Part shown: positions 10,128 to 32,506 of the stretch, piece by piece
Position numbering within the stretch: position 1 is the stretch's first letter
Layout of the letters: each line of letters begins with the position of its first letter
IMG/VR virus record: IMGVR_UViG_3300007960_000080
Coordinates: 1 to 35,082 of that record
Reading direction: 5' to 3' (one strand)
From: a virus
DNA length: 35,082 nt
The notes under the pieces: model-generated
Database searches by the model: none
What the model saw: only the letters and a program-made list of their open reading frames with translations
Told to the model about the DNA's origin: nothing
Program-made: the position numbers and the translations under genes

Positions 10128-10465
10128 TTTAAGTCCTCAAAATTAAGTTGAACACCACCTTTAGCTCTAAGTAATCTAGATAGCATTTGAGAACCTTTTA
10201 ATGTTGCCAATGCGTCTTTATTTTGATTTTCACGAATAACAGGAGCAAGGCTGGGAAACACATTCTCAGGTTTCTCATTAGTTCCAAAAGATTTCATAAT
10301 ATAAAAAGTTCTGAGATCTTCTTTCCAGCCCAGTGGTCTTCTATCAAAATAAGCCATCCAGCCAATAAACTCATCATAAGGCATTTCTTGTTGAAGCTTG
10401 TAAAGAGGTGTCTTTAGAGTATATGCTATTTCATATAATAACATATCCTCTTCAGACAATACTAC
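10124..10465 (-). CDS. T-like extension of the tail chaperone, made by -1 frameshift (GT)
   Basis: This frame encodes 111 residues after the shift site, plus two linking valines. It lacks a good start of its own: the first start-like codon is a TTG at 10459 with no suitable ribosome site. The sequence EMPYDEFIGWMAYFDRRPLG at about residues 25-44 is the conserved core of phage minor tail T proteins (helix ending in a Trp, then a Pro-Gly turn), which links the chaperone to tail-tube subunits. Only the fusion is expected to be made, at a low ratio to G. The TGA overlaps the next ATG (ATGA). Confidence 0.85.
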   Translation of the reverse strand, partial: VVLSEEDMLLYEIAYTLKTPLYKLQQEMPYDEFIGWMAYFDRRPLGWKEDLRTFYIMKSFGTNEKPENVFPSLAPVIRENQNKDALATLKGSQMLSRLLRAKGGVQLNFEDLK

Positions 10466-12957: not shown

Positions 12958-14154
12958 TTAGCTGTGGAAGATAGGCAGAATACCAAGAGACAATGCAGAA
13001 TCAGCCTTACGAATCCAAGTACCAGTGGTATTAGCCAAAGTGTCTGCAATATCAGTAAGCAGAGTAGGTGTGTTGTTATCAATACCATATTGATACATAG
13101 CATCAGAGGGGAATGAATCCTGAGAACCAGCCCAATTATAGCCAGCAGGATGCGCAACATAGCCCCAACGATGCCAAATAGAGGTAGAACCACCACCTTT
13201 ATAAGAGGCAGGAGCGCGATCAATTTCCACAGGCATCGGCACATCCAGAGATTCCATAGCAATTGCACCTGGAAGTACAATAAAGGAAGTCTTAGTACCA
13301 ACAATATCAACACCAGCTCCAGTGTTCAGCTTAGCCAGTTCAGCAGCACTTAAACTCTGAGCTGCACGAGTCTGAATCAAACGAAACTTACCTTGGAAGA
13401 TGGTATCAAATTTAATATTACCGTCGACAACACCGTCCTGATCAACAAGATTAGCAGAACGCAGAGATGCCATTACTTCAGGAGAAGTAATAAGATAAGC
13501 ATATTCCGGCTCATAATCTTTATATGCCATACCAAAAGCATTCAAGAAACCAGCAGCACGCTGTGCACCACGTTCCATAGAAGCTACGGTATTGTCATAA
13601 GCTTTAACAACAGCATCAGAACCAAGATCTACATAAAAACCATACTTAGGATCAGTAGGATCATTCTCAAAGGTTTGACCACCTAAGCCAGTACCACCGC
13701 CACCAACAGCTGTACCATTGATAGCTTCAGAAATAGCCACACCTTTAAGAATAGCCAGAATAGCATTATGTTCATCCTGAGAACGATGCTCACCAAAATC
13801 ACGACCGATTTTAGCAAGACCATCCTGCTGAGTAACAACTTCCTGCATATTAACTTTAGTACCACCATACGTACGTACAGTTTTAACATAGTTAAGATAA
13901 TCAGAAGTATAAGTACTACCAGTACCATCAGCACTATCGGTCAAAGATGCAATATTAATAGTAGGATTCATTGGCTTGAACCAACGCATCTGACCAATAA
14001 AAGTTTCAGTATTGGTGTCAATCTGAGGATTTCCACTTACAATACCAGTGCCTGACAGCTTCTTAGCATTAGTATAGGCTTCATCAGTGTATGCGCTAAT
14101 AGCTTCTTGCAGAGCAAAATTGTCAGCGCCGCTTACATCAACACGTAAAGTCAT
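12958..14154 (-). CDS. Major capsid protein
   Basis: A 398-residue protein following the scaffold gene by 18 bases. It contains the layout of an HK97-fold capsid protein of the kind made with a separate scaffold: an N-terminal arm, YLNYVKTVRTYGGTKVNMQE at about 85-105, a long helix (DFGEHRSQDEHNAILAIL), a domain with YAYLITSPEVMASLR, and a C-terminal segment with SIWHRWGYVAHPAGYNW. The gene is richer in G+C than its neighbours by eye, as expected of the most highly expressed virion gene. No cleavage site or protease is evident, so maturation may occur without processing. The fold assignment is from context and pattern rather than a search. Confidence 0.87.
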   Translation of the reverse strand: MTLRVDVSGADNFALQEAISAYTDEAYTNAKKLSGTGIVSGNPQIDTNTETFIGQMRWFKPMNPTINIASLTDSADGTGSTYTSDYLNYVKTVRTYGGTKVNMQEVVTQQDGLAKIGRDFGEHRSQDEHNAILAILKGVAISEAINGTAVGGGGTGLGGQTFENDPTDPKYGFYVDLGSDAVVKAYDNTVASMERGAQRAAGFLNAFGMAYKDYEPEYAYLITSPEVMASLRSANLVDQDGVVDGNIKFDTIFQGKFRLIQTRAAQSLSAAELAKLNTGAGVDIVGTKTSFIVLPGAIAMESLDVPMPVEIDRAPASYKGGGSTSIWHRWGYVAHPAGYNWAGSQDSFPSDAMYQYGIDNNTPTLLTDIADTLANTTGTWIRKADSALSLGILPIFHS

Positions 14155-14172: not shown

Positions 14173-14868
14173 TTAGCTTTTTCGTAGAGTTCCAGCTCTA
14201 GCTTTTGCCAATACCTCATCTTGAGACATATCGAAAATAGATTTGGAACTGGATGTATCAGTGTTATTCGATTCACCGCTACCGCCACCAGAATTAGCTT
14301 TGACTTTCAACAAGAAAGAATTATTTTCATTATCCATGAATTCTTTTACAAAATCAGTAACAGTTTTACCAGATTTATGTACCCAATTTCCATTATCATC
14401 CTGAGTTAACTCAGTAATGATTTCTCTAAAGGCCATTTCACTAGCAGAACTATTACGAAAATCATAACCACGAAGCTCATCACGAACACTAATATCACGT
14501 GTAAGTTCGACATTACGTTTTTCGAGAGCTGCACGTTTAGAACGTTCTTCAGCAAGATCACGCTCATAGAGCTCTTTATGCTTACCTTCTTCTTCTAAAC
14601 GTTTCCTTTCGGCTTCTTTCTCTTTCTGTTCAAATTCAGCAAGTTTAGTCATAGCTTCATCTCTAGAAGCATAAGCACTATCAAGTTTATCTTTCAAACT
14701 TTTAAACTCGGCATCAATTTGATCTTGGACTAACTTCTTAATATCAGGATTGTTCATATCAATAGTAGTACTTGTATTAGTAGTGTTAGTACTATTGTTA
14801 GTATTCTGATTCTGATTGTTAGTTGTTTCGTTGTTGTCAGTATTCTGATTATCAGTATTATCGGACAT
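14173..14868 (-). CDS. Scaffolding protein
   Basis: A 231-residue protein starting at ATG 14868, with AAAGGAAA upstream; a GTG at 14889 would add seven residues that read as the ribosome site itself, so I reject it. The first 40 residues are Asn/Thr/Gln-rich low complexity encoded by imperfect short DNA repeats. Residues about 45-130 form a long charged coiled coil (KLAEFEQKEKEAERKRLEEE, ERSKRAALEKRNVELTRDI). The C-terminus is a short helical domain (SIFDMSQDEVLAKARAG), typical of capsid-binding scaffold ends. Position immediately before the major capsid gene supports the role: it templates prohead assembly and is then lost. No prohead protease is encoded nearby. Confidence 0.85.
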   Translation of the reverse strand: MSDNTDNQNTDNNETTNNQNQNTNNSTNTTNTSTTIDMNNPDIKKLVQDQIDAEFKSLKDKLDSAYASRDEAMTKLAEFEQKEKEAERKRLEEEGKHKELYERDLAEERSKRAALEKRNVELTRDISVRDELRGYDFRNSSASEMAFREIITELTQDDNGNWVHKSGKTVTDFVKEFMDNENNSFLLKVKANSGGGSGESNNTDTSSSKSIFDMSQDEVLAKARAGTLRKS

Positions 14869-14977
14869 TTTATTTTCCTTTCTGAGCACGGCTCATTAGC
14901 GACACTATACACGGTATATGTCTTTGAAAATTCTTTTCAGGGTTTATATTCACCTGGGTTAATTTAACGGGGTTGAA
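14869..14977 (-). promoter_or_regulatory. Intergenic region with four short inverted repeats before the scaffold gene
   Basis: The longest non-coding gap in the window, 109 bases between the polymerase fusion and the scaffold gene. On the minus strand it reads through GGTTGA-T-TCAACC (14971-14983, containing the fusion's stop codon), GTTAA-A-TTAAC (14958-14968), TGAAAA-GAA-TTTTCA (14925-14939) and TATAC-CGT-GTATA (14906-14918). The last two are perfect 6- and 5-bp stems with three-base loops. It also holds ATAAACCCTG, shared with the gap at 11003-11089. A TATAGT sequence lies near the fourth repeat, but no convincing -35 box is seen. Probably a promoter, operator or RNA-processing region for the capsid genes. 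Confidence 0.45.
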
Positions 14978-17900
14978 TCAACCTACACCATACCAACCCA
15001 AGTCATCTTCGAAAACTTCTGGAATTTCTTTCAGAATATCTTCTTTCATTAAAATATCAGTATCTTTTAAAAGTCTACCGTCAATTCTAGATCGTCCAGG
15101 AATAGGAATCAATCCAGATTCAATAGCTTCTTCTAAATACTTATCATATATAGTTTTTGGAAGACCTCTCTTTCTCATTTCATCTAAAGTGTCTTTAATT
15201 ATATTTCGCTTTAAAGAATCAGCATAGATTTTTCTTAAAGCAGATCTTGCCGCCATAATATCAGCAGCATTACTAAAGAAAGCATCATGAATAGTAGATG
15301 TTGGAATACCATTCGCTTGACCCCATAAGTGAAAACGTTTCACAATAACAGCATCATTCGAATGATTTCCATTAACAGCAAAAGCAGTCCTTGCTTTAGT
15401 AGCATCAGCTATATCGTTAATTTTTCCAGATTTGTTAATAATCTGTTCCCACCAGGTAGCATCAGTTTTCTGAGGTACTTGTAAAATATTAGTAACCCAA
15501 TTACCATACTTATCTTTATACGTAAGTCTTTCTTCAAATACTTGTGTAAAATTCTGTTCAATGACTTTACCATCGAAGTTAACCCAAGGGACATTTGTCC
15601 AACTCTTAGGGAGCTTATTAGCTTTAAATACTTCAACTTCATTCACAGTTTTCAACTGAAGAAAATCTACTTGTAGATATTTAGCACCAGTGCGTCTTGT
15701 TTTAGGATCCGCTACACCATAAAGAATTTCAGATAAGAACCCATTATTTTTCCAAAATCCAAAGTTCTTTAAAACTTTTTCACTTAAAACTTCTCCTCTT
15801 TTAATGCCAAGAATTTGACTTACTGAATCAGGTAAGATATAGCCTTGTTCTTTATCACCTAATACAGTTTTCTTTATAATAGTTGTCCAATCAAAGGCAC
15901 TTTTAGAAGGTTTGGAATTCTGAAGATAATCTTCAGCTAATCTACCGAAGTATCTAGTAAAGGATTTTAAAATAGGAACTTGCTCTGCTAAGTGTTCACT
16001 CATAATACTAGCAATTTCTTTAAAATCATTAGGTGTAATGACGCGATTATATGATTTAGAGATTTTTTCTACAAGTTCTTTTGTATTCGGATCTAAAAAG
16101 TATAACTGGTCAAGAATGTCATCACCAGGATCAATACCTTTATTAAAGACATCTCTAACATTTACTCGAATAGCTCTTAGTTCGTCTGCAGTTTCAGGAT
16201 CAAATCTTTCATATCTAGCAATACGAGCAGATATCTCACTTAACACCTTATCTCTATCAGAAGCCTTAACTACTAAAGTGTCTGTGTCTCTATCAAGAAT
16301 TTTAGCAAGTTTACCTTCAACATTCATAATACCGGTACGTTCACCAGCACCATAGAATGTTACCATATTTTGAGCTTTAGCAGCCTTTCTTAAATCTTTC
16401 TCGGTCAAGTTTAGCTTTTGGTTAAGTTTTCTAAATTTAGGATCATTATATGTCGCAGCAGCAATTTCATCATATAATCTTTTCTTTTGATTGGTAGGAA
16501 TGACATTACTAAGTTCAGCAAGTTGTTTATTTCTTGTAGTAAGCGCGATAATCTGTGCTCCAGAAGACGATGCATCCTGTTCTAGGGCAAGAGCTGTTCT
16601 ATACTGCTCTAAAGCTCTTATAGAAGCATTAGAATAATCACCCTTCAAGTGTTTATCAATTTTAGCAGATTCAATAGCAAATCTAAAGAATTTACCAAGC
16701 TCTTCACCCTCAACCCTCGCTACCATCTCAGATTCGAGAATTTTACGAATATCTTGAGGTTTACCCCTGATCATTAGATTCCCGATTCTAACAAGCTCAG
16801 GACGCCATTTCTTTGCAATCTTCTGCCTGCCAGTAAAGCTTAAAGAATTGTATCGACCCTCAAAATAATCATCCAGACCACCTAAGAAAGCACCTATTTG
16901 GTCTTCATAATTACGAAAGCCAAGAATCCCTAAATTTCGTTCATGTGCTGTATTAAGGAATGGTCTAAAAGTTTCCCCAGATTGAGGGCCAATAAGCCCT
17001 CTATCATAGATACGAGCGCGATGATCGATAAAAGGATGGTTACTAAAAGAACGACCCGAACTACGTAACCAATCCATAGCTTTGAAGCGTTCATATGAAT
17101 CACCTCTTGATATTATATATTTTCGGTATTGATTTAAACCATCAAAGTATGCTGCTTTTCCTTTATCATCTTTAAAATTAAGAAGTTTAACTGTGAAATC
17201 ATAGAAATCTTCATCAATCTTGTATTCAGACTTAGCCGCCCAATTTAATGCTTTTACAAGATTTTTATCAATAAATTCTTCAGGAAAATCCGAAAAACTA
17301 GAAGTAGATGTGATAGGAATTCGAGTATCTTCGTATCCTATTCTATTCTTAATAAAGTAAGTTTTATAACCTTCTCGAAATACTAGACGATTTTTAGAAG
17401 AAGTAACACTAACTCGTAAACCTAATTCAACCTTTCTGGTGAGTTTAGCGTATTCTTGAATACGAGGATCTGTAATTCTAATATTATATGAAAAAGTATC
17501 ATAATATGGGCCGAAGTATTGCCCACTCATTCTACTCTTCATTCTACGTTTTTGAACACCAAATGTTTCTAGTTCATACAGTTTCTTAGCATTCTTAGAC
17601 TCTAGAATCTGTTTTCCTAATTTATGCCATTTAGTACGACTACCATTCAGATTAGCCATATTATATAGATCACGACCAATAGCAACAGCTAATTGATCGA
17701 AATCAGGAGAGTCGGCAAGACTCAATCTATGTGCAAATCGAAGATAGAACTGCTGTAATTCTGCATCACTTAATCTAGTTCTTACTCTAAGAGGGATATC
17801 AGGGTCTAAAAAACGTCTTAAATCCTTAGCAACTTTAGGGGCTATTCTGTCTTCCCACTTATTTTTTGCCCTAATATTACTAATAAAAGTATCATGCAAA

Positions 17901-19606
17901 TCATCTAGTTGAGTATTTCCTAAAATAGGATCTATGTAATTACTGTCAGCGAGTCTTTTTAATAAGTTACTATCTTTACGTAATTGAGTTTCAATTGCAT
18001 CAGAAACATTCATTACATCAAACTTGACTTGACTCTGAGATACAGCTTTAAAATTAGTCCAAAAATCATTAGGGTTATTTCTGTAACGTGTAAAGATGAT
18101 CCTTAGATTATCTACTACTACAGCTCGTTCATTGATACTCATTTGATCTGCTAAAGAGCTGTCAAACCTTTCAATAAAATCTATATCAGCCTTTTTTAGA
18201 GACGTAGATTCTCTAACAAGTCTTAAGTTATTAGAATGTACACCTGGTGCTGGTTGAAATAATCTAGTATCTTCATAACGACCAGTTACAGGATTAAACT
18301 TCAACTGATCTTCTCTAGGAAGTTGTGTAAGAACTCTTCTCTTAGTTGCACGTTTGGTGTGTATTAAATTACCACGATAGTTAGTTAAAGATAATACACC
18401 ATCTAATTCTCTTGATTGTAATATATAATACTGTCTAAGACGATCAGTTAATGCTGTATCTCCAATAAAATCATCAGGTGAAGAAGCTCCTATATGTAAT
18501 GCATCTAGCCTTTCTTTTGCAATAGCAAATCTTCTAGAATCTCCAGGTCTGGTGTATTCAGAGTCTGTCAATCGACGCAGTTCTTTAATACCTATGGAAT
18601 TACCTTCAGGGTTACTAAACTTGTCAATCATTAATTGACCTTTCCTAAAAAGTTCAACTTTCTGCATATCACCAATATGTCGATACTGGGTTTCTTTAGT
18701 CTGCCTTAACAACCAAGAATGGTAAGATTCTTTAAGGGGAGTTTGCCCATCATAAAATGCAATCTGCTTTTTAGATAGTTTTTTAAGGTTTCTTTTCCTT
18801 ACTTGAGCGACACCTTCCAACTTACTTAAGTCATCCCAACTTTTAACCACTGGAGTTGTTGTTGAACGACAATTATAGTGGGCTGGAGGGAGATGCGCCG
18901 TGTTACCTATTGCATAGATATGACCATCTCGGTGCGTACAGATTGCGGTTGTCCTAGCGTCCAAAACAGCCACATATTGCCAACCCTCTAATCCATCCTG
19001 ATTCGCTGTATAAACCTCGTGATCAATTTGGTTATATACACTAGTAATGGCAGTTGTAGTAAGAGCTCTAGACTGATTTCTAGTAATTCTATAAATATTA
19101 CCTTTACGTACATTCTTAGCTATTTCTTCAAAGGTATCACCTTCAGCAAGACCTTTTCGTATAACACTTTCTATACGTTTCCTCTCACTGTGACTTACAC
19201 CTGCCCATCCTTGCGCAAGTGTCTTGTCACCATGTAAGGGTCTTTTTAAAACAATATCTTCTGAAATACGTCTTTGAGGTCGTTTGACCCGCCATACTTG
19301 ACTCATCGAAGCCTCAAGAAGTTGATAAGCGTATGATGCTTGGTCAGAAGCAAGATCTAATAAAGACCTCTTAGATATATTATATGCATCTTTAAAGGTC
19401 TTTAGTAATTCTTTATCAAATGCTTTATGGAAATCATCAAAGCTTTTAGCATTTCGAATAAGTCGATCAGTACGAATGGCATGGCCATTAATTATAACTT
19501 CAATTTTATCATTGGATCGCCTTTCGTATAAACGAATCATTGCTGAGCGATCCAAGACTTTATCATAGATTTGAGTATTAACATTAATAGCCATTGACTG
19601 CCTCAT
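14978..19606 (-). CDS. Minor head protein (Mu gpF / SPP1 gp7-like) fused to a T7/N4-type single-subunit RNA polymerase
   Basis: A 1542-residue protein. The N-terminal 250 residues match Mu F/SPP1 gp7 head proteins: helical region, then YVAVLDARTTAICTHRDG (C223) and LPPAHYNCRS (H243, C246). The remainder carries single-subunit RNA polymerase motifs in order: FIDHRARIY (R865, like T7 R425) with GPQSG; motif A DASSSGAQ (D1011, like T7 D537 in DGSCSGIQ); motif B R1073-x3-K1077-x7-Y1085-G (identical spacing to T7 R627, K631, Y639); NGNHSND (H1415, like T7 H784); and motif C TIHDAFF (D1441, like T7 D812). All catalytic residues are present. The B-to-C distance, about 356 residues, is longer than in T7 or N4. 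Likely packaged at the portal vertex and ejected to transcribe early genes. The start at 19606 overlaps the portal stop (ATGA); an ATG at 19594 with GAGG six bases upstream is a good alternative. Confidence 0.9.
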   Translation of the reverse strand: MRQSMAINVNTQIYDKVLDRSAMIRLYERRSNDKIEVIINGHAIRTDRLIRNAKSFDDFHKAFDKELLKTFKDAYNISKRSLLDLASDQASYAYQLLEASMSQVWRVKRPQRRISEDIVLKRPLHGDKTLAQGWAGVSHSERKRIESVIRKGLAEGDTFEEIAKNVRKGNIYRITRNQSRALTTTAITSVYNQIDHEVYTANQDGLEGWQYVAVLDARTTAICTHRDGHIYAIGNTAHLPPAHYNCRSTTTPVVKSWDDLSKLEGVAQVRKRNLKKLSKKQIAFYDGQTPLKESYHSWLLRQTKETQYRHIGDMQKVELFRKGQLMIDKFSNPEGNSIGIKELRRLTDSEYTRPGDSRRFAIAKERLDALHIGASSPDDFIGDTALTDRLRQYYILQSRELDGVLSLTNYRGNLIHTKRATKRRVLTQLPREDQLKFNPVTGRYEDTRLFQPAPGVHSNNLRLVRESTSLKKADIDFIERFDSSLADQMSINERAVVVDNLRIIFTRYRNNPNDFWTNFKAVSQSQVKFDVMNVSDAIETQLRKDSNLLKRLADSNYIDPILGNTQLDDLHDTFISNIRAKNKWEDRIAPKVAKDLRRFLDPDIPLRVRTRLSDAELQQFYLRFAHRLSLADSPDFDQLAVAIGRDLYNMANLNGSRTKWHKLGKQILESKNAKKLYELETFGVQKRRMKSRMSGQYFGPYYDTFSYNIRITDPRIQEYAKLTRKVELGLRVSVTSSKNRLVFREGYKTYFIKNRIGYEDTRIPITSTSSFSDFPEEFIDKNLVKALNWAAKSEYKIDEDFYDFTVKLLNFKDDKGKAAYFDGLNQYRKYIISRGDSYERFKAMDWLRSSGRSFSNHPFIDHRARIYDRGLIGPQSGETFRPFLNTAHERNLGILGFRNYEDQIGAFLGGLDDYFEGRYNSLSFTGRQKIAKKWRPELVRIGNLMIRGKPQDIRKILESEMVARVEGEELGKFFRFAIESAKIDKHLKGDYSNASIRALEQYRTALALEQDASSSGAQIIALTTRNKQLAELSNVIPTNQKKRLYDEIAAATYNDPKFRKLNQKLNLTEKDLRKAAKAQNMVTFYGAGERTGIMNVEGKLAKILDRDTDTLVVKASDRDKVLSEISARIARYERFDPETADELRAIRVNVRDVFNKGIDPGDDILDQLYFLDPNTKELVEKISKSYNRVITPNDFKEIASIMSEHLAEQVPILKSFTRYFGRLAEDYLQNSKPSKSAFDWTTIIKKTVLGDKEQGYILPDSVSQILGIKRGEVLSEKVLKNFGFWKNNGFLSEILYGVADPKTRRTGAKYLQVDFLQLKTVNEVEVFKANKLPKSWTNVPWVNFDGKVIEQNFTQVFEERLTYKDKYGNWVTNILQVPQKTDATWWEQIINKSGKINDIADATKARTAFAVNGNHSNDAVIVKRFHLWGQANGIPTSTIHDAFFSNAADIMAARSALRKIYADSLKRNIIKDTLDEMRKRGLPKTIYDKYLEEAIESGLIPIPGRSRIDGRLLKDTDILMKEDILKEIPEVFEDDLGWYGVG

Positions 19607-21165
19607 TCTTCTTCTAGCTTACCTGCAAAACTATTTGATCCTTTTGGGATCAAAAGCTCATCATCATTGATTTCTTTTTGACCCGCTTTATCATCATAGT
19701 CAGCTGCTAGCATATCATTTTGTTTAAGGATTTGTAACCAAACAGTGCGTGGAATAAGACCTTCCTGATACCATTCTGTTGCTAGTCTAAGCCAATCCGC
19801 ACCTAATGGAATAGGATTAAAATCAGCAGATAAACTAAATTCAACATCAGTTGTTTTTAGGTCTAAACCATAGCGCCAGTTTAACATAAAAGTAATAATT
19901 TGTGTCAAAACTGCACTAATTTTACTATTTAGTGTACCAAGTTGTGCTGTTTGAGCAGCATTTCTAATTTCAAGAGCTACACCAGATTGAGCTGTTTCAG
20001 GTGATAGCATTCTAATACCTAGTTTGGCCATTTCTTCAATAGAAGATGCAATGGCTTTCTCCATATCAGCAAGAGCAGCTGTGGGAGTTTCTAAAGCAGA
20101 TATAGTACTATTTTCAGGAAGCTTGATCCAAGAACCCAAACCTGCACTAACAATATCCTCAAATTGATCATCAGTCATATCTGCAGATATTACAGGTGTA
20201 TATGTAGATGCACCATAGAGAAGATGGTTACGTCTGCTTAACTTATTATAGAGACTGACTTCTTTATCAACAAGAGGTATGATTGTAGGCTCATTTATGC
20301 TAATGCTACCATTAAGTGGCCATGCTGGTATAAAATCTAATCTTTCACCATTTACTAAGATGTTAGTGACAGTATTTGCTAAAACAAACTTAACTTTAGA
20401 AGTTGCACTAGGATTATGAAAAGTTTGACCACTAATTACAGGAACATTCTTTTCAATATCTTGTTTCTGAAAAATACGAATTTGATATTTTCCGTCTACT
20501 ATCTCATGAACTCGAATAGTGTCAATCAATTCAACATGAAATTCATTATCAGAGTGTTCACTTTCTTCAAAACCTCTAGTAATCACTCGAACAAGTTGTT
20601 TCTTTCCCTTAGCATTAGTAGAAACACGCCAGTTAATAACACTTTCCGCTTTCCAAAGAACAGGATAGGGCATAATACTTTGCTGTTCTTGTTTAGTAAG
20701 TTCATCAGGATTACCTATAGTAGGGTAGTCTACATAAACCCAGGCTCTGCTTGTCTGAATTTCTTCCCAAAGTGCTTTATCCATAAATGCAATTAAAGGA
20801 CTATCATCTTGAGCAAAGTCATTTAGAATCCAACTAGCTGCTTCTTCAGGAACCTCTTCTGGTAATGTAAGTTCAGGATCTTTTCTTAACAAACCACCAA
20901 CAAGCATCTTAGCAAATTGAGAGACAATTCCAGGTAATTCAGCTTCAGCTTTATAAAAATCATACTGCTGCTGTGTCATGGAAGGTGAAAAAGGTATTAA
21001 AAGATTGCGAAAATTAGTAGTATCAAGGTAACCATCGTAATCTTTTGTAAAACGCTCTCCACTACAGATAGCTCTGCATTTATCCCATAAAGGTTTGACA
21101 GATTCATATTCGGCATTAGGATCCGCTACTGTTCTGGTTTGATCTGCAGCATTAGCGACAGCCAT
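19603..21165 (-). CDS. Portal protein (DUF4055-like)
   Basis: A 520-residue protein with the features of DUF4055 portal proteins: an N-terminal helical segment (YESVKPLWDKCRAICSGERF, residues 20-39), then QQYDFYKAEAELPGIVSQFA and LVGGLLRKDPEL at about 66-99, a central wing region, and a long helical stem/crown (ETAQSGVALEIRNAAQTAQLG). Portals form a dodecameric ring at one capsid vertex through which DNA is packaged and ejected. Length is normal for the family. It directly precedes the minor-head/RNA polymerase gene with a 4-base ATGA overlap, so the two are co-translated and the second protein is likely to bind the portal. The C-terminus is acidic. Confidence 0.88.
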   Translation of the reverse strand: MAVANAADQTRTVADPNAEYESVKPLWDKCRAICSGERFTKDYDGYLDTTNFRNLLIPFSPSMTQQQYDFYKAEAELPGIVSQFAKMLVGGLLRKDPELTLPEEVPEEAASWILNDFAQDDSPLIAFMDKALWEEIQTSRAWVYVDYPTIGNPDELTKQEQQSIMPYPVLWKAESVINWRVSTNAKGKKQLVRVITRGFEESEHSDNEFHVELIDTIRVHEIVDGKYQIRIFQKQDIEKNVPVISGQTFHNPSATSKVKFVLANTVTNILVNGERLDFIPAWPLNGSISINEPTIIPLVDKEVSLYNKLSRRNHLLYGASTYTPVISADMTDDQFEDIVSAGLGSWIKLPENSTISALETPTAALADMEKAIASSIEEMAKLGIRMLSPETAQSGVALEIRNAAQTAQLGTLNSKISAVLTQIITFMLNWRYGLDLKTTDVEFSLSADFNPIPLGADWLRLATEWYQEGLIPRTVWLQILKQNDMLAADYDDKAGQKEINDDELLIPKGSNSFAGKLEEE

Positions 21166-27689: not shown

Positions 27690-28427
27690 CTAGTCAAGAT
27701 TTAATTCATTATAAATATCCTGACGGATGATACCTAATCGGTTCATCGCTTCTTCTTCTGTAATAATACCAGCTTCATGTTCAGCAATAATAGTATCAAT
27801 TAAAGTTTTCTTTTGCCAACTCCAAGTATACGCTTGTTCTCCTTGAGCTGTTAATAAGTCGTCAATAGCTTCTAAATCAGCAACTTCTAAATGATACATT
27901 TGGTTATCTTTAGCTCTAAAATACGGTATCGGAGTTAACCCATCAGGTGTATGTGGAAGCTTCTTACCTGCTCTTCCACGATCTCGATATTGCATTAGAT
28001 TATGAAAGCTTTCAAGACCACCATCGAACATGACACCATTATATTCAAAATCAGCAAACTTTATTTTAGAACGAATATCTGAGACAACCTTACGAATACG
28101 AACTGCTTCACGCTTAAATGATTTAGTACGTACAGATGTTGAAATTTCTCGAATACCGTTTTCCTCAAGAATGACTCTCAATTCTGGATTATTCCAACGA
28201 AGCGCAATAGATCCTGCAAAGAACATTCTTGTTGGGTACATCTTCTGAACTTCACCAGTTACATTACCATATCCATCGAAAGTATTTTCCATTACAGGTT
28301 CAGATTGATCTGTAGGTTTACCATCACTGTCAAGCACAGATTGAAACATCGGCTTAAGAATTTCTTTACCATAAAGATCTCTAGTACCTGTTATAGTTTT
28401 ACCATTTTTATCAAATCCTTGCCACAT
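27690..28427 (-). CDS. Virion- or fibre-associated protein, DUF4376-like C-terminus
   Basis: A 245-residue protein of uncertain function. The C-terminal 70 residues (NQMYHLEVADLEAIDDLL, then a Trp-rich helix and LIDTIIAEHEAG) resemble the helical C-terminal domain of phage fibre-associated DUF4376 proteins. The N-terminal half has a turn-rich opening (GFDKNGKTITGTRDLYG) and a basic helical region (SVRTKSFKREAVRIRKVV). No signal peptide or membrane segment is present. It begins in a TAATG overlap with the large adhesin gene, so a fibre-associated or fibre-assembly role is plausible. It could equally be a virion component; confidence in the function is low although the gene is clear. Confidence 0.6.
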   Translation of the reverse strand: MWQGFDKNGKTITGTRDLYGKEILKPMFQSVLDSDGKPTDQSEPVMENTFDGYGNVTGEVQKMYPTRMFFAGSIALRWNNPELRVILEENGIREISTSVRTKSFKREAVRIRKVVSDIRSKIKFADFEYNGVMFDGGLESFHNLMQYRDRGRAGKKLPHTPDGLTPIPYFRAKDNQMYHLEVADLEAIDDLLTAQGEQAYTWSWQKKTLIDTIIAEHEAGIITEEEAMNRLGIIRQDIYNELNLD

Positions 28428-31312
28428 TAAAATGCCCTCGAATATTTCTCTGGAGCTTCAGCCCACGCCATTACAATATACCTCGATTGATCGGCATTGA
28501 TACCAGCACTATCTTCAGTTACCCTAAACCCATTAGACATAAAGAATATATCGTCACGATCTGCCGAAATATCTTCAACATCTGGTGTATCAAATTCTAA
28601 AGATCCTATCATTTCATTATAAGGGTCTCTGGCAGAATCAAAAATATACCAATTATTACTTATAAGATCCAATCGCTTTATCACAACAACTTTAGGTCTG
28701 AAACCTAAATGTACATAAGGACCTTCTAAGCCACCATTACCAACATAGCTAGTGAATTTACTGAAGCCTTCGATACCAGTCCAAAGGTATGCAATATAGT
28801 TATCAGTTCCAGAACCATTAGTATTATTCAAGGTATTGTTAGTTACCATAAATTGCGTAGAAGACCAATTTCCAGTACCCCAAGGTGTATTAGCCGGACT
28901 TTCTACTTGATTAATATCGAGCTTTAAGAAATGGATATCACTTGAAAGCTCTTTATGCCATACAAACCAATTTTCAGAGCTGTCTGTTCGTTTTACTATA
29001 GCGAATTCAATAGTTTTGCCTAAGTTATGATTTATATTTCGATTTGCAGTGTTATCACCACTATATTCTACAATATCAAAACCAGCTAATCTATTCTTTT
29101 TCCAACATAAAGCCTCGTAGTTATCACCAGTAGCATTAGTATAAGAAGTCGATTGCGTACCTTTTGTCAAACCTAGACCATCAGTTCTAAATTCATCAAC
29201 ATAACCATAACCACTATTAAAATCTTCAGCTATGGTATCATTAGTATAAATAGAATAACCAGCACCTCTAAGAGAATCATAAACAGAGTGCCAAATAGTA
29301 CCATCATTGATATTAAAAAGGATTGCAAGATCAGGTTGAAAAGATAGACCTGATATATCTCTAGTAGCTGCATCATCACCAGTCCAAGAAAGTATATCAA
29401 AATACTTAGTAGGATTAGCAATATCAGGCTCTGGCATGTTAGCTGTACAAATAGATTGATAACCAGAATCAGGAGTCACATTCCAATCTCTTTGACCAAA
29501 ATTAACTTCTATAGTATCTTCATTATGCCAAAAAGCTGGAAAGAGTGTGTCAGCATCTGAAAAAGATATCGCACTAGTACTGTCAGTAGCAGTTTTCCAT
29601 TTAATAGTCTTATTATCCATGTCTACCATGCACATAATCCAGACATTAACTCCTGGATTTGAAGACCATTCTAATGTATGTTCAGTACCTTCTACAAAGA
29701 CTGATGTTATAGATTCTTTAGCATAATTAATAAAAGAGCTACCAGGTCCTGCATAGTTCTCCATCTTTTCATTCCATCTGGCAGTACCAATACTTATATT
29801 AGCACCACCTGTGATCATTTTTCCTTCAAAGCACCATTTACCTGTAGAAGGAAAGGCAGTAGTACATGGAATTAATGGTTCTGTTGCACCACCTGACTCT
29901 ACAGACTCTAGACCACCATTATTTAAGTTAGACTGTACAACTGAAGCAAATCCAAAATGGTGGAGAATAGGAAAAGTGTTTGTAGGAGTATCATTTACTT
30001 GATTGGCTGAGGTAAGATTAGTAGCAGTTAAAGTGTTACCAGTTGGTCGTGCAGATGCCTCAGTCCTTAGATAACGATAATCTAAATCTTCATTTAAAGC
30101 AATACCTGCAGAATAAATATATTCAGTAGTAGCACCTGTATAACTTTCAGTAGTTTCATCTTGTTGTAAATATACCAAAACGAATGTCTGAATACCTGTT
30201 GTTGTAACAGTACCTGAAACACCACATTTATACCAACCATTACCTAAAGACTCTATAAAATTATCACCAATCTGACTTGTAGAAGAAATGACTCCAGTAG
30301 ATAGATTAAAGCGTGCCTTAGCAATACTACCATCAGTAGCGTTCCAAACCAGTACATTAATCCAATCAAGAGAACCAGCTTTTAAAATTGCTACTCCGCT
30401 ATACACACCTGCTGTAGATAAGCTAACACCCTGAGCATATCTATGGATATTATTATCAACAGTATTTATAATCTTATCTGCTGTATTTGTACCAAGAGGG
30501 TCTGTAATCTCTGCTGTATTTGCACTTACAGTTATTTGACTTTTGTTCCAAACTATGTTGTCAATTTGTTCAGAATAAGTGAGTCTATTACTACCTCCAA
30601 GAGAATCATACCCTAGGTTAGTAGCATCCTCAAAATCAAGTCTAATGTCGAGATCAGAGTGTGCAGTAGAATAACCTTTAGGAACCCATTGACCTGTTAC
30701 TGGATGAAATTCACCAAAAGCTGTCTCATCTAAACTATCAGTATTATGGATTTGAACTCTAGCAAGATACCCATCAACATATATATCATCACTAACCTTG
30801 ATAGTAGCACCGGTTAACAAAGCTTTGATTGTTGTGGTTGTATTAGCAGGTATTGATGACTCATTGAAGTCAGTGATTCTATTACCATTAATCCACACTT
30901 TAGCTCTATCTGCTTGAGTAGCGTTATCAAGATCTAATGCCATCACTACATGCATCCAAGCAGTAGCATCTTTAAGAATCGGACTACAACGTAAACTCAG
31001 TAAAGTAGTGTTATCATTACGCATTTGGAGCAGCATAGAGTCAGATGATGTGCCATCCCATTCCATAATTACATAATGTATAGTACCGTTACCAATATAT
31101 ATTGGATGTTCATCAACTGTTTCATTAGAAGCAAGCCTTCGATACCAAGCTGACATAATTAAATGCTGATCATCTGAACCGTTAAATGAAATAGCTTTAG
31201 ATAAACTACTAGAATCTGCTGAATCGAATAGAAGACTATTAGTAATAATGTCACCAAAGAAATCACCTGCAGGATCGCCCTGTGTGTGTCCTCCTAAAGG
31301 TATTAGACTCAT
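28427..31312 (-). CDS. Large multi-domain fibre/adhesin (LamG-like, SPRY-like, DUF7483-like)
   Basis: A 961-residue protein built of beta-sandwich modules. Residues about 45-225 look like a LamG/concanavalin-type lectin fold (AWMHVVMALDLD, KVWINGNRI). Residues 240-435 resemble the carbohydrate-binding module that opens with NRLTYSEQIDNIVW. Residues 450-635 resemble a SPRY domain (GKWCFEGKM, VDMDNKTIKWK, VNFGQRDW). From about 637 to 955 there are three related copies of a roughly 105-residue unit, starting YFDILSWTGDD, GFDIVEYSGDN and GFSKFTSYVGN, like the DUF7483 units of phage fibres. The protein probably binds host surface glycans. It overlaps the genes on both sides by one base and is likely co-translated with them. 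Domain names come from pattern recognition, not a search. Confidence 0.8.
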   Translation of the reverse strand: MSLIPLGGHTQGDPAGDFFGDIITNSLLFDSADSSSLSKAISFNGSDDQHLIMSAWYRRLASNETVDEHPIYIGNGTIHYVIMEWDGTSSDSMLLQMRNDNTTLLSLRCSPILKDATAWMHVVMALDLDNATQADRAKVWINGNRITDFNESSIPANTTTTIKALLTGATIKVSDDIYVDGYLARVQIHNTDSLDETAFGEFHPVTGQWVPKGYSTAHSDLDIRLDFEDATNLGYDSLGGSNRLTYSEQIDNIVWNKSQITVSANTAEITDPLGTNTADKIINTVDNNIHRYAQGVSLSTAGVYSGVAILKAGSLDWINVLVWNATDGSIAKARFNLSTGVISSTSQIGDNFIESLGNGWYKCGVSGTVTTTGIQTFVLVYLQQDETTESYTGATTEYIYSAGIALNEDLDYRYLRTEASARPTGNTLTATNLTSANQVNDTPTNTFPILHHFGFASVVQSNLNNGGLESVESGGATEPLIPCTTAFPSTGKWCFEGKMITGGANISIGTARWNEKMENYAGPGSSFINYAKESITSVFVEGTEHTLEWSSNPGVNVWIMCMVDMDNKTIKWKTATDSTSAISFSDADTLFPAFWHNEDTIEVNFGQRDWNVTPDSGYQSICTANMPEPDIANPTKYFDILSWTGDDAATRDISGLSFQPDLAILFNINDGTIWHSVYDSLRGAGYSIYTNDTIAEDFNSGYGYVDEFRTDGLGLTKGTQSTSYTNATGDNYEALCWKKNRLAGFDIVEYSGDNTANRNINHNLGKTIEFAIVKRTDSSENWFVWHKELSSDIHFLKLDINQVESPANTPWGTGNWSSTQFMVTNNTLNNTNGSGTDNYIAYLWTGIEGFSKFTSYVGNGGLEGPYVHLGFRPKVVVIKRLDLISNNWYIFDSARDPYNEMIGSLEFDTPDVEDISADRDDIFFMSNGFRVTEDSAGINADQSRYIVMAWAEAPEKYSRAF

Positions 31313-32053: not shown

Positions 32054-32506
32054 TTATTGTACTTGAAGAGTCCAAGTAATGGACAGAGTGTCACTAGCAC
32101 CTTTATTAATAGTCCCAAAGACAACTCTAGAAAGCAAAGTACCGCTGGTACCAGCATTCAGAAGAGCAGCTTCAACAAGAGCAGCTGTAGCCGTCCCTGG
32201 AGGAAAGGTAGCCACATACTGAACAGAATCATTAGTGACAGTAGTAGTTACAATAGTTGTACTATCAAGAGCTACACGACCAGATTCTGCACCAAGAGCG
32301 GTGTCTGTACCAGTGGCTGCAGTATTATCAGTACCTACTGCCATATGAGATATCACATTTTCAGCAGTACCAACCATACGACTGGCAATATAAGCAAGGC
32401 CCGTATTAACTACTAAATTGCACTCATTTTTATGTTTTACATTACCGAATTTATCAGTAAGAGTTAAGAGAACAGTACCCTTAACTTTCAGTTTGTCTAT
32501 TAACAT
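32054..32506 (-). CDS. Phage virion structural protein (150 aa)
   Basis: A 150-residue beta-rich protein. The N-terminal stretch (DKLKVKGTVLLTLTDKFGNVKH) leads to NLVVNTGLAYIASRMVG, a pattern I associate with small virion proteins found near fibre genes in many phages. The middle is rich in Thr and Ala (GTDNTAATGTDTALG) and the end is a run of short strands. No catalytic motif or membrane segment is seen. It lies between the repeat protein and a fibre protein with gaps of about 10-16 bases, so it is probably part of the same adhesion apparatus. Its DNA looks somewhat richer in G+C than its neighbours by eye, as do the capsid and tail-tube genes, which may reflect high expression. Confidence 0.65.
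   Translation of the reverse strand: MLIDKLKVKGTVLLTLTDKFGNVKHKNECNLVVNTGLAYIASRMVGTAENVISHMAVGTDNTAATGTDTALGAESGRVALDSTTIVTTTVTNDSVQYVATFPPGTATAALVEAALLNAGTSGTLLSRVVFGTINKGASDTLSITWTLQVQ

Follow-up and report, generated by a model that had tools for sequence, protein, structure and literature searches.

The window, which is the whole stretch of DNA analysed here, is an IMG/VR virus record of 35,082 bases. On its minus strand, read from 19606 to 14978, lies an open reading frame (14978..19606) whose 1542-residue translation joins a MuF head protein to a single-subunit RNA polymerase (MuF-RNAP), as revealed by Pfam and PHROG matches and by structure. The first-pass annotation had described a Mu F/SPP1 gp7-like N-terminus, and two profile matches agree on it: Phage_Mu_F (PF04233) at residues 144-250 (18857-19177, minus strand; E=4.9e-14, 53.5 bits, Pfam cut-off 29.6) and the head morphogenesis family PHROG 241 (phrog_241) at residues 3-348 (E=3.5e-62). 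The head module occupies residues 1-349 (18560..19606, minus strand), with a boundary at 349 that is conserved with the head protein of Pelagibacter phage Kolga. Its MuF identity is based on Pfam and PHROG; the AlphaFold2 model of this part is of middling quality and has no match in the PDB. The two head elements reported earlier, C223-T-H225-R-D-G and PPAHYNCRS at residues 240-248, are exactly placed, but their full conservation did not hold. H243, C246 and R247 are invariant across 42 homologues, while H225 (31/42) and N245 vary and the C-x-H-R-D-G element is only partly conserved.

Residues 350-564 form a linker or unassigned stretch between the head module and the polymerase fold, which extends over residues from about 565 to 1542 (14981..17914, minus strand; model residues 185-1162 aligned to T7 RNAP). 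The polymerase half is supported by an RNA_pol match (PF00940, in two stretches) above the Pfam cut-off (E=6.2e-13, 48.8 bits, cut-off 22), and by PHROG 414, RNA polymerase, over residues 860-1096 (E=1e-20). The eight catalytic residues listed in the first pass stand exactly where they were placed, and in an alignment with T7, SP6 and other enzymes each one pairs with its T7 counterpart. These are, on the minus strand, R865 (codon 17012..17014; T7 R425), D1011 of palm motif A (16574..16576; T7 D537), R1073, K1077 and Y1085 (T7 R627, K631 and Y639) within polymerase motif B at residues 1073-1088, RKAAKAQNMVTFYGAG (16343..16390), H1415 (15362..15364; T7 H784), and H1440-D1441 of palm motif C (15284..15289; T7 H811-D812). 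T7 Y571 is likewise kept in the fusion polymerase. In the 42 homologues, which include both DSS3 roseophages, R865, D1011, K1077, Y1085, H1415, H1440 and D1441 are invariant; R1073 is kept in 39 of the 42 and is Ala in the two roseophages.

The AlphaFold2 model of residues 381-1542 was computed from 40 window and locus sequences, the two roseophage rows being left out, and reached a pLDDT of 77 and a pTM of 0.73. Its top PDB match is T7 RNAP (Z 28.8, 528 residues, 3.5 Å), followed by mitochondrial RNAPs (Z about 19-26), N4 mini-vRNAP (18.4) and N4 RNAPII (13.5), these matches spanning residues 565-1542, and Foldseek returned the T7 RNAP fold with an E value of 1.6e-17. The structure prediction proposed earlier for this half has given a match across the whole palm of T7 RNAP, which implies that D1011, K1077 and D1441 cluster in space in the model. 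A single-sequence phmmer search of PDB sequences with the fusion protein gave no match, while a profile search matched T7 RNAP and N4 RNAP2, weakly. The polymerase core has a dN/dS of about 0.05, that is, strong purifying selection. The catalytic residues, the predicted fold and this constraint together indicate that the fused polymerase is a whole and maintained T7-fold enzyme.

The fusion gene overlaps by 4 nt with the portal protein gene (19603..21165; phrog_145, E=2.8e-69) and is followed by genes for the head scaffolding protein (14173..14889; phrog_206, E=3e-13), the major head protein (12958..14154; phrog_247, E=3.5e-19) and the 1777-residue tail tape measure protein of a long-tailed phage (4425..9758; phrog_17300, E=6.5e-61), all on the minus strand. 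Genes for a head-tail adaptor, a tail terminator, the major tail protein and tail fibres are further minus-strand neighbours. The gene order is that of the MuF family, next to the portal gene and ahead of the scaffold and major head protein genes, and the order portal, MuF-RNAP, scaffold, major head, tail and tape measure bears out the siphovirus setting proposed earlier. Its place within the portal-scaffold-capsid operon and the 4-nt overlap with the portal gene mark the fusion gene as a late head gene. Upstream of the portal region, a 961-residue protein (28427-31312, minus strand) matches phrog_19943, 'virion structural protein' (E=4e-94), and tail-fibre families.

A search of IMG/VR with the single sequence returned 366 stretches with a relative of the polymerase part, and at least 540 stretches encode such a relative. 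Among 127 loci with a readable RNAP frame, the MuF signature lies in the same frame in 114, and the other 13 are cut by a contig end; apart from these 13 cuts no relative lacks MuF beside a readable RNAP, and in none are the two parts split. Across 50,697 phage records, the whole protein occurs only in EBPR siphovirus 1 and in the roseophages DSS3_VP1 and DSS3_PM1 (Naomviridae). The identities within this set of full-length homologues are 59% and 29-31%, and the database labels read only 'minor head protein-like', 'head morphogenesis' or 'head protein'; the homologue of DSS3_VP1, whose laboratory host is R. pomeroyi DSS-3, is DSS3VP1_00028. The polymerase part of DSS3_VP1 and DSS3_PM1 is 32-37% identical to that of the window. 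In a scan of one genome per species, the family was found in a single Gammaproteobacteria MAG, on two contigs (L193 and L194; JAOUJT010000001.1 and JAOUJT010000313.1), and this sequence probably derives from a phage contig that binning placed there, either along with its host or by chance.

The head protein of Kolga is 31% identical to the window protein over residues 1-349, and a metallopeptidase-like C-terminus replaces the RNAP. This C-terminal part of Kolga gp59 (locus L147, 20001-21902) has an HEFAHH region and a Peptidase_Mx1 match (E=9e-5) that is below cut-off. With the same head module joined to another C-terminus, Kolga serves as a natural control, and the comparison of the sequences suggests that the module behaves as a carrier of exchangeable cargo, in line with accounts of MuF toxins (PMC5512222, PMC6316719).

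Two homologues of the fusion gene are interrupted. A Group I intron (Rfam RF00028, 56.3 bits) lies at 10219-10425 of locus L064 (IMGVR_UViG_3300044630_001302), inside the homologue, at a point that corresponds to residues 1413/1414 of the window protein and adjoins the catalytic NHS motif. In EBPR siphovirus 1 (gp47/gp48/gp49; locus L082, 23189-24040) the homologue is split at residues 1082/1083, within polymerase motif B, by an insert that encodes an HNH endonuclease and has an Rfam match below threshold. The insert is probably an intron, so gp47 and gp49 are likely to be exons of one protein.

A PF00940 search revealed that all 15 larger relatives (14 IMG/VR genomes and DSS3_VP1) encode both the fusion and a separate, free T7-type RNAP of about 690-990 residues, whose gene is split in one genome (G011, two pieces of 514 and 257 residues). 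DSS3_PM1, like DSS3_VP1, has a free RNAP, so that the two roseophages combine a full-length homologue with a free enzyme. In the window, a 35 kb fragment, and in the partial EBPR siphovirus 1 record no second RNAP was found, and the fusion occurs alone, as may be expected of fragments. In the tree, the fused RNAPs group together with 100/100 support, and the free ones are placed among T7-like enzymes. Since the two kinds of polymerase form separate 100/100 clades, the idea that the MuF gene recently acquired a copy of the free RNAP is rejected. The free RNAP frames of G005 (40438-42273, 926 residues) and G007 (18123-20177, 994 residues) have their RNA_pol match in two pieces, which suggests an in-frame insert, either an intein or an extra domain.

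Unsupervised repeat counting in the intergenic DNA of eight relatives yielded two promoter-like motifs. Motif A has the core ACCCCGTTAAATTAACCCT and the fuller form A[A/C]CCCGTTAAATTAACCCt; exact copies number 47, in 14 of 22 records, and the reversed-pattern control gave 0. Its sites lie on a single strand within each record, which is the gene strand where checked, and it precedes head and other genes in the relatives. The sole copy in the window is an exact CCGTTAAATTAACCC at 14956-14970 (minus strand), between the fusion and scaffold genes, within the extended site AACCCCGTTAAATTAACCCAG (14954-14974, minus strand), and has a matrix score of 34.8 against 7.6 for the best of the shuffles. EBPR siphovirus 1 carries a variant of motif A at the same place.

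Motif B has the core GCGgAAAAnnnGGTATCTTATATGA with a 5' hairpin, and the fuller form tGCGgAAAAnnnGGTATCTTATATGA, in the intergenic DNA of relatives. Exact copies occur at 35 sites in 15 of 22 records (reversed-pattern control, 0), again on one strand per record, the gene strand where checked. The motif is placed in a region of small ORFs ahead of the gene for the free enzyme: of the 35 sites analysed, comprising exact ones and the variants of G004 and G011, 29 fall within 8 kb upstream of that gene against 12% expected, and they do so in all 14 IMG/VR genomes, which share ancestry, so that the count describes a conserved placement and not 14 independent events. The corresponding figure for motif A is 5 of 40 sites. 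The early-region ORFs tested, from motif B to the free RNAP, gave no Pfam match above cut-off. Motif B holds no inverted repeat in itself; the hairpin lies downstream, beginning at the end of the motif (mean z −2.6 against −0.4 in controls) and reaching 0 within about 20 bases. The stems of these hairpins are many and different in sequence, and the hairpin is as would be expected for the structured 5' end of an mRNA. No convincing motif B was found in the 35 kb window. A motif-B-like site at 32369 (minus strand), inside a tail-fibre-like ORF (32054-32506), scores 18.7 with the matrix against 6.7 for the best of the shuffles.

DSS3_VP1 has a motif-B-like repeat, GAAAACTAAGGCATCTATAATGA, in two copies at 35.8 and 36.2 kb; its free RNAP gene lies at 42.4 kb, 6.2-6.6 kb further downstream. 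These are the two best matches to the motif B matrix in 75 kb, with scores not above those of shuffles, and CATCTATAATGA is the putative counterpart of motif B in this phage. The repeat before its later genes, ATAGGGTGCGTTAAAGAGGGGG, is more T7/SP6-like than motif A, and occurs in about 12 copies (e.g. 2341, 6588, 7416, 19334 and 29404), often with a hairpin after it, also ahead of the portal gene. These repeats are likely to be promoters of the free RNAP of DSS3_VP1, whose later transcripts would then start at CGTTAAAGAGGGGG. The DSS3 relatives in IMG/VR are too few for footprinting of the DSS3 motifs.

Taken together, these observations make it likely that the MuF-RNAP is delivered with the virion and reads early genes from motif B, among them the gene of the second RNAP, which in turn reads motif A. 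The MuF-RNAP would be made late, together with the portal protein, and by analogy with SPP1 gp7 its MuF module would bind the portal and so carry the polymerase into the procapsid. For SPP1 gp7, entry into the procapsid by way of the portal and presence in the virion are known (PMC6316719), and C-terminal payloads on MuF proteins are a known theme (PMC6316719, PMC5512222). With expression from the late head operon, the polymerase would miss the early genes of the same infection; the portal-binding MuF module would place it for entry into the particle and for exit along with the DNA. The first-pass view that the head domain tags the polymerase for packaging by linking it to the portal is well supported by analogy, given gp7, the payload theme and the natural control of Kolga. 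The polymerase would then leave the particle together with the DNA by way of the tail and, once inside a new host, read the early genes from motif B promoters tGCGgAAAAnnnGGTATCTTATATGA, with transcripts starting near the conserved 5' hairpin. The early region would lead into the gene of the free T7-type RNAP, which would then read motif A promoters ACCCCGTTAAATTAACCCT ahead of the head and other genes. The second RNAP and motif B lend some new, indirect weight to host-independent early transcription, also suggested in the first pass.

We infer the pairing of motifs with polymerases from their position and from one case of co-variation. Genome G014, whose free RNAP is the first-branching one of the window family, combines a typical MuF-RNAP with three exact sites of motif B. 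It lacks motif A, and a search there for a counterpart of motif A found none. This co-variation fits an assignment of motif A to the free RNAP and of motif B to the MuF-RNAP.

In T7, transcription is started by the host RNAP. It is conceivable, although rather unlikely, that a virion-delivered MuF-RNAP mainly pulls the genome in by transcription or reads motif A, and that motif B is an early promoter of the host RNAP with an alternative sigma factor or of the free RNAP. The indirect nature of the motif-polymerase pairing leaves room for such an assignment, the AT-rich block TATCTTATAT of motif B resembles a −10-like element, and transcription by the N4 vRNAP also drives genome entry (PMC4496689). 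However, motif B has no conserved −35 block, and its upstream GCGgAAA block keeps a constant place (−13 to −6, counted from TATCTT), unlike sigma-70 spacing. Moreover, the early region of the one genome analysed, G013, shows no excess of sigma-70-like sites (23 against 24 in shuffles), and G014 keeps the MuF-RNAP and motif B though it has no motif A.

The position of the gene in the late operon would also suit a polymerase that is never delivered and works on the procapsid or late in the cell, in packaging-coupled transcription or late expression, perhaps once cleaved off the head module. We regard this as improbable, as a free RNAP gene is already present in 15 of 15 larger relatives, the two parts are split in no relative, and MuF C-terminal payloads carried in the head have precedent (PMC6316719, PMC5512222). 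Toxin or host-modifying domains are frequent on MuF proteins (PMC5512222) and the Kolga module bears a metallopeptidase-like payload, so the polymerase fold might serve as an effector against the host and not as a transcriptase; the retention of all T7-type catalytic residues, the strong constraint on the RNAP core and the promoter-like motifs in the genomes of relatives make this very unlikely. That the fusion arose by chance or misassembly, or holds a dead polymerase relic, has a negligible probability in view of the domain matches, the catalytic conservation, the T7 fold, the dN/dS and a fusion conserved in hundreds of IMG/VR stretches and in cultured roseophages; a chance or assembly artefact was rejected.

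The first-pass assignment to a T7/N4 family stands for its T7-type, single-subunit part, but membership of the N4-type vRNAPs is rejected by size and domains, the protein having 1542 residues, a MuF N-terminus and a polymerase fold that runs up to the C-terminus. N4 gp50 has 3500 residues, with dedicated regions for injection and encapsidation (PMC5512222). In this Schitoviridae protein, an N-terminal injection region and a C-terminal MPTase/encapsidation region flank the polymerase, whereas the fusion is without these; gp50 belongs to a podovirus, whereas the MuF-RNAP lies in a siphovirus-type genome. By structural Z the modelled polymerase is nearer to T7 and POLRMT (28.8 for T7 against 18.4 for N4 mini-vRNAP). 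A blastp comparison of the fused RNAP with the N4 vRNAP gave no significant match, and in the tree the N4 vRNAP stands apart from the fused clade on a very long branch, where the deep topology is unsure. On sequence, the fused enzyme is not demonstrably closer to the N4 vRNAP than to other members of the family.

The likeness to N4 is one of arrangement. In both, a single-subunit RNAP is encoded among the virion genes, and the gene of a second single-subunit RNAP follows small genes in the early region, here in 15 of 15 larger relatives; the early-region ORFs without Pfam matches also resemble the small early genes of N4. The early promoters of N4 are hairpins centred near −11, whereas motif B is linear with the hairpin downstream, if motif B is indeed the promoter of the MuF-RNAP. 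N4 late genes use the host sigma-70 RNAP, whereas the head genes of MuF-RNAP relatives carry motif A. The encapsidated N4 vRNAP reads early genes, which encode a second RNAP (PMC4496689). The same wiring is seen here in gene content and motif placement, and by this analogy the MuF-RNAP probably works like the N4 vRNAP.

Giant phages of the AR9/PBS1 and phiKZ types also use a virion RNAP for early genes and a second RNAP for later ones. Their RNAPs are multisubunit enzymes, whereas both are single-subunit here; AR9 has two multisubunit RNAPs (PMC5312081). With SPP1 gp7, Mu F (gp30) and the MuF polymorphic toxins, the fusion shares the N-terminal MuF module, a gene right after the portal gene and a C-terminal payload, which is an RNA polymerase in contrast to the toxin, RelA/SpoT or PBECR domains of known MuF proteins.

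A single-subunit RNAP in the virion is known from N4, as are C-terminal enzymes on MuF proteins. The first pass named no characterised MuF-RNAP fusion, and none is described in the literature found, the founding 2021 roseophage paper lying outside that set. New here are the separate T7-type RNAP beside the fusion in 15 of 15 larger relatives and the two recurring promoter-like motifs. It is an evenly balanced question whether this is a second, independent invention of a virion-delivered single-subunit RNAP, made by a widespread group of long-tailed phages, with the T7-fold enzyme as a MuF payload, a linear early promoter motif B and a handover to a second T7-type RNAP with motif A, by which the host RNAP would be bypassed both early and later.

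N4-like podoviruses and giant phages are known to carry RNAPs in the virion, and here such an enzyme would take a compact, single-chain form on the head protein of a long-tailed phage. It occurs in hundreds of viral contigs from the environment and in two cultured roseophages, whose records omit the polymerase. If true, the proposed delivery illustrates a way to target a large enzyme to the head and to get it through a long tail, and it supports a modular view of MuF proteins as an address with a payload, be it polymerase, peptidase or toxin. It would also add two new families of candidate promoters and the polymerases that go with them. The DNA of DSS3_VP1 is dU-substituted (PMC12697855), and the same route suggests how such a dU-DNA phage might start transcription.
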